From positions 682,001-746,000 of the forward strand of contig NZ_CP135529.1 of NCBI RefSeq assembly GCF_032401055.1: a stretch of DNA of 64,000 nucleotides, read 5' to 3'. Made by a program: the position numbers and the translations under genes. Below the pieces are notes generated by a model that searched no databases, was not told the origin of the DNA, and was given only the letters and a program-made list of their open reading frames with translations. Shown here piece by piece: positions 22,194 through 22,819 of this stretch (positions within the stretch are counted from its first letter, which is position 1; each line of letters begins with the position of its first letter). This DNA is from Tardiphaga sp. 709 (GTDB taxonomy: Bacteria; Pseudomonadota; Alphaproteobacteria; Rhizobiales; Xanthobacteraceae).

Positions 22194-22341
22194 AGGCGGC
22201 TCCAGGGAAACGCAAAAGGCGACTCAGAGCCGGGAGTTTAGGCGGCCAATTTCAAACAAATGGTTGCGGAAGCATGCGGCAGAAAATCGCTGTCATGGTC
22301 GAGCGTCATGAACCCGCTCACTCCCGCCGCGACAAAGGATC

Positions 22342-22806
22342 ATGACCCCGTCCTTGCCTCGCGACCTCCGCACCCTCGCCGCATTATTCGCCGCTGCCAT
22401 GACAATGCTGGCCGCTCTCGCACCACACGCGGCAGCACAACAGCCCTGCACCACCGACCCGCTCGCACAATATGCCGAGGTGCGATCCACGCTCGCCGAC
22501 GTCGCCAGACGCGGTCTGCGCGGCCGGCACTATTACGAGATCACGTTCAGAACCTCGTTCAACGGCGTCATCGTGCCCGATGCCCAGCGCGCCCAATATC
22601 CCGAAGACATGACGTTCGTGCTGCAGCACCAGTTCGAGCGACTGAACGTCACCGCGGATCGCTTCAGCGTCAACCTGTGGTTCAAGGGGATCATGTCCCG
22701 CGTCACGGTGCCGTTCAACGCTGTCACCTATTTCGTCGATCCCTCGGTGAATAAGCGGCGCACATTCGATCCGGGGACGAACGCGCGCGTCTGCGACAAG
22801 CCGTAG
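22342..22806 (+). CDS. SspB-fold protein with an apparent signal peptide
   Basis: 154 residues. The first 33 residues look like a Sec signal: Arg near 7 and 10, a hydrophobic LAALFAAAMTMLAAL, and an HAAAQ cleavage site. The remainder aligns over its length with alphaproteobacterial SspB: GRHYYEITFRTSFNGVIVPD, YPEDMTFVLQHQF (YPDEMTIVLQHQY in Caulobacter SspB-alpha), SVNLWFKGIMSRVTVPFNAV and FVDPSV. SspB is a cytoplasmic adaptor that delivers ssrA-tagged proteins to ClpXP through a C-terminal tail. Here the acidic linker and ClpX-binding tail are absent and the protein ends with a Cys-containing VCDKP. The exported location is inferred. Confidence 0.8.
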   Translation: MTPSLPRDLRTLAALFAAAMTMLAALAPHAAAQQPCTTDPLAQYAEVRSTLADVARRGLRGRHYYEITFRTSFNGVIVPDAQRAQYPEDMTFVLQHQFERLNVTADRFSVNLWFKGIMSRVTVPFNAVTYFVDPSVNKRRTFDPGTNARVCDKP

Positions 22807-22819
22807 TCAGCCAGGCTGG

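Follow-up and report, generated by a model that had tools for sequence, protein, structure and literature searches.

The 64,000-nucleotide stretch of the Tardiphaga sp. 709 genome analyzed in this study (the window) contains a gene for an SspB-like protein that carries a predicted Sec signal peptide. SspB is the textbook cytoplasmic adaptor of ClpXP. The initial annotation of this DNA had described an open reading frame with an SspB-type domain and a leader at this position, which was confirmed by the exact coordinates (Table 1), by the match to the Pfam SspB model (PF04386) and by conservation across the family. None of the ten in-frame codons between the preceding stop codon and the ATG of the gene is an alternative ATG, GTG or TTG start.

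Table 1. Coordinates of the SspB-like gene and its features in the window
Feature	Position	Strand	Basis or remark
Gene for predicted exported SspB-like protein	22342..22806	+	ATG start, 154 amino acids; PF04386, E 5.2e-29
Predicted Sec signal peptide, residues 1-32, cleavage between AAA and QQPC	22342..22437	+	Sequence reading; leader and AxA-type site in 45/45 intact homologues
Predicted mature part, 122 amino acids	22438..22803	+	AlphaFold predicted local distance difference test (pLDDT) 81.8, predicted template modelling score (pTM) 0.75; nearest folds are SspB
SspB domain match, residues 47-147	22480..22782	+	PF04386, 101.7 bits (cut-off 27)
Cys36, first conserved Cys, residue 4 of predicted mature protein	22447..22449	+	Cys 2-5 residues past AxA-type site in 45/45
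Cys151, second conserved Cys, near C-terminus	22792..22794	+	Two Cys in mature part in 45/45
Segment missing in Tardiphaga G008 and G002	22277..22819		15-16 other bases between the same two flanks

PF04386 matched the window protein above its cut-off and was found in all 25 aligned exported homologues, and the best solved structures by sequence were SspB of Agrobacterium (2nys, E 7.7e-17), followed by that of Caulobacter (2qaz/2qas); a chance match to SspB was ruled out by these results. The SspB fold was also borne out by a structure search with the AlphaFold model of the mature part, in which SspB structures were the nearest folds. No stronger match to another fold was found, the rival domain matches being weak (LuxE, with E 0.05 in Pfam and, in NCBIfam, 17.8 bits where the cut-off is 550). 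E. coli-type SspB proteins with ssrA or RseA peptides (1ou8, 1ox9, 1yfn), which are cytoplasmic ClpXP adaptors, had 16-19% identity to the model in structural alignment.

As had been anticipated, the same genome encodes a separate canonical SspB (G000:C1:5609383-5609838, E 2.2e-48). That protein has the linker and the tail (RLDRFRKK) and no leader, and the window gene is thus paralogous to the cytoplasmic SspB of the cell.

The anatomy of the exported family was compiled from 45 intact proteins, three from Tardiphaga and 42 from a sister genus (g25), with starts chosen by hand; these proteins are kin, and the counts represent non-independent events. They derive from 48 fetched loci, of which three were dropped: G004, which has an in-frame stop, G016, which has lost its N-terminal part, and L083 of G376, which lacks the usual ATG and has the frame, the AxA site and the two Cys. 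The alphaproteobacterial SspB proteins (2qas/2qaz, 2nys, PF04386) belong to the same domain family as the window protein, but the exported family differs from them in having a signal peptide and two conserved Cys and in lacking the linker and the FRKK tail.

Residues 1-32 of the window protein read as an n-region with R7 and R10, a hydrophobic stretch and a cleavage site. A hydrophobic leader was present in all 45 exported proteins, with a highest 12-residue mean hydropathy of 2.02-3.48 as compared with 0.43-1.54 in 72 cytoplasmic SspB proteins; K or R preceded it in every case, and an AxA-type site ([AV]xA) lay 2-5 residues upstream of a Cys. The leaders vary widely among these proteins, yet the leader and the AxA-type site are always kept, which bears out the Sec-type export signal proposed in the initial annotation. 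A lipobox directly ahead of the first mature Cys was found in none of the 45 proteins, and lipoprotein identity was thus ruled out. With its charged n-region, hydrophobic stretch and AxA-type site, the window protein is predicted to be Sec-exported and soluble. It could be argued that translation starts internally, past the hydrophobic stretch, to give a cytoplasmic protein, since the starts were chosen by hand, the leader was read from sequence and 12 of the 45 proteins have a Met near the first Cys. This is unlikely in the extreme, because no such Met is present in the other 33, the leader, its preceding K/R and the AxA-type site persist in all 45 despite widely differing leader sequences, and the Cys pair is absent from cytoplasmic relatives.

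The mature part of each of the 45 proteins holds exactly two Cys, at residues 36 and 151 in the window protein, with a spacing of 96 residues in 42/42 g25 proteins and of 114-115 in the three Tardiphaga proteins, whereas 71 of the 72 cytoplasmic SspB proteins have no Cys. Cys36 and Cys151 are probably joined by a disulfide, which would hold the two ends of the SspB barrel together. The FRKK ClpX-binding tail was found in 0/45 exported proteins, and the linker is also missing from the window protein; 69 of the 72 cytoplasmic proteins terminate in FRKK or FRKKT, and of the remaining three, two are cut off where their contig stops and the third has an unusual C-terminus. Both the Cys pair and the missing ClpX tail had been pointed out in the initial annotation. 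The cytoplasmic SspB at L079 (genome G350) combines an odd C-terminus with one Cys, unlike the other 71, perhaps through a frameshift or an assembly error.

Two strains of Tardiphaga robiniae are named relatives. A second SspB copy was present in 5 of 18 Tardiphaga genomes, intact in G000, G003 and G009 and broken in G004 and G016. The family was sampled with 391 genomes from 47 genera. Two SspB matches were seen in 28 further genomes, of which 23, all in g25, had a true second exported copy; the second match in G018 and G130 consisted of fragments or canonical-type copies at the edges of contigs, and a single PF04386 match was present in each of G041, G136 and G320. A search profile built from 25 exported proteins identified 59 carriers among 265 g25 genomes (43 were fetched), with scores of 127-226 bits; cytoplasmic SspB proteins reached no more than 112 bits, and G426 and G490 had two matches each at the cytoplasmic level. 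Sampling of the order and of the class gave exported-level scores in 4/347 and 1/337 genomes, respectively, all from Tardiphaga or g25, and G616 was the sole genome outside the two genera with two matches among the genomes listed. It is possible that unrelated exported SspB proteins that score like cytoplasmic ones are present elsewhere in the order or class.

Canonical-type SspB genes were also seen on three IMG/VR contigs classed as viral (L135, L136, L137), which may be proviral host flanks or misfiled contigs. A plasmid collection gave six partial matches (57-72% of the query, 41-45% identity) in records of 1.6-4.6 Mb, one annotated as an SspB family protein, and these six were taken as canonical SspB.

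In the phylogeny with cytoplasmic SspB that the initial annotation had suggested, 32 exported rows fell on one side of a branch and 29 cytoplasmic rows on the other with a support of 97/94, in a tree of 103 columns for which the bootstrap was unsettled and the program flagged a long branch (L137). By sequence, the window gene is thus a member of a clade of predicted exported paralogues and not one odd gene. The divergence of exported copies followed that of cytoplasmic copies in the same genomes (rho 0.88 in 25 genomes and 0.86 in the 22 of g25; 0/2000 permutations each), which points to mainly vertical descent; horizontal spread as the main mode in g25 was rejected on these correlations.

The ratio of nonsynonymous to synonymous substitution rates (dN/dS) for the mature part was 0.06-0.38 in 16 hand-picked g25 pairs, indicating purifying selection, and 0.03-0.15 in nine pairs of cytoplasmic SspB. 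In the single Tardiphaga pair it was 0.44, and purifying selection is less clear there. The gene for a small membrane protein that adjoins the SspB-like gene was found in 15 of 18 Tardiphaga genomes, with an SspB-like match at five of the 15 loci and none at ten. In G008 (L142) and G002 (L148) both flanks align and 15-16 bases replace 543 of the window, a clean presence/absence difference. The distant genomes G009 and G016 carry the gene at this same location, which makes repeated loss the simpler interpretation. These ten loci, the two broken copies out of five and the dN/dS of the Tardiphaga pair would also be expected of a decaying duplicate without function, but this explanation is very improbable given the purifying selection in g25 and the retention of the leader and both Cys in 45/45 intact proteins.

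Many residues that are fixed in alphaproteobacterial SspB are replaced in the exported family. In 70 cytoplasmic SspB proteins, H36-H37-F38, R54, H69, Q70, W72, D73, G84, S86, G89 and P107 are fixed or nearly so, and these positions are relaxed across the 45 exported proteins. The equivalents in the window protein are H63-Y64-Y65, A81, H96, Q97, E99, R100, N111, W113, G116 and P134; among them H96, Q97, G116 and P134 are retained, and R54, W72, D73, G84 and S86 have given way to A81, E99, R100, N111 and W113, respectively. What both groups conserve are core positions, mainly hydrophobic or small, plus Q95, R120 and D133. The alignment raises the suspicion that ssrA binding was lost in the exported family. 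The view of the window protein in the initial annotation was upheld for the SspB fold, the export signal, the missing ClpX tail and the Cys pair, and was not supported for ssrA binding. The same changes, together with the nature of the shared conserved positions, favor the main rival explanation, namely that the exported SspB fold is reused without peptide binding, either as a scaffold for another ligand or to inhibit or form part of an envelope complex. We regard this as less likely, as no alternative ligand or partner is indicated and the fold is characteristic of a domain that binds peptides.

The preferred reading is that a duplicated, exported, Cys-stapled SspB works as a peptide or tail binder of the envelope independently of ClpXP, and its probability is put at about 0.5. 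Homology, paralogy, the leader, the Cys pair, the missing tail, the single clade and selection are established at the level of sequence. The following course may be proposed. In the lineage that comprises Tardiphaga and its sister genus, an SspB gene would have been duplicated, and the duplicate would have come to carry a Sec signal peptide and two Cys near the ends of the mature domain, without the linker and the ClpX-binding tail. After cleavage of the leader, the domain would fold in the periplasm and the two Cys would form the disulfide that staples the barrel ends. Less certainly, the groove may still bind extended peptides or tails of envelope proteins, with a specificity other than for the ssrA tag, and such a binder could act as a chaperone, a sequestering factor or an adaptor to an envelope protease. 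ClpXP is cytoplasmic, and a protein without the ClpX tail that is, as predicted, located outside the cytoplasm would be unable to serve it. A more elaborate form of the proposal, in which a ClpXP adaptor domain moved across the membrane to become a disulfide-stapled, ATP-independent, redox-stabilised reader of peptide tails in the periplasm and would survey envelope proteins or deliver them in bacteria related to rhizobia, is tentative and has somewhat less than even odds.

Several observations weigh against the preferred reading. Besides the broken Tardiphaga copies and the higher dN/dS of the Tardiphaga pair, the AlphaFold model has low confidence around both Cys and at both ends, and its input alignment included three canonical SspB rows, which biased the fold towards SspB. 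The function of the groove is deduced from the fold alone, and no ligand, partner or conserved neighbor gene of the exported SspB came to light.

A link of the exported SspB to tail-specific proteolysis is conceivable. The window genome encodes a transfer-messenger RNA (tmRNA; L132; G000:C1:272379-272731) with the tag ANDNVRMNEVRLAA, as read by ARAGORN, and one S41 protease, and Prc (Tsp) is named in a review as a protease that degrades periplasmic proteins (PMC9382460). Acting in that compartment, Prc/Tsp (S41) proteases would recognize C-terminal tails and are possible partners only (PMC9382460). They are enzymes of another family, however, and no link to the exported SspB gene was found. 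That the window protein is a periplasmic adaptor handing ssrA-tagged or nonpolar-tailed proteins to a tail-specific protease of the S41, Prc/CtpA type is improbable: both tmRNA and S41 proteases occur widely, with nothing to tie either to the exported SspB gene, the S41 gene is distant from it in the genome, and tag-related conservation looks relaxed.

In the neighborhood of exported SspB genes, a carbonic anhydrase-like gene with a leader adjoins the gene at L104 (PF00484, E 1.6e-37) and at L114 and L119, where it was identified by eye. A short dyad, ATTTGAAACAAAT, is located with one mismatch at window positions 22249-22261, upstream of the gene for the small membrane protein. Other Tardiphaga loci have it at the same spot, both those that hold the SspB-like gene and those that do not. 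In the window alone it had 2 matches, a number reached by 9 of 100 shuffles and not above chance. A regulator of the small membrane protein gene may act at this dyad.

The SspB domain itself is known, and no exported SspB was described among the titles listed in the open-access literature searched; the exported, Cys-bearing, tail-less branch was likewise not found described among the open-access matches listed. The Salmonella SspB reported from culture supernatants (PMC9670971) is probably a homonym. In Salmonella, SspB is also an old name of SipB.

The exported SspB copy probably has a new role outside the cytoplasm. If the proposal is true, the exported, Cys-bearing SspB clade would indicate that an adaptor can part from the AAA+ protease that it serves and find a new use in the cell envelope. 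Exported and cytoplasmic SspB proteins together would form a natural set for separating residues for folding from residues for tag reading, and the exported SspB would draw attention to an envelope factor of soil bacteria that is as yet unstudied.
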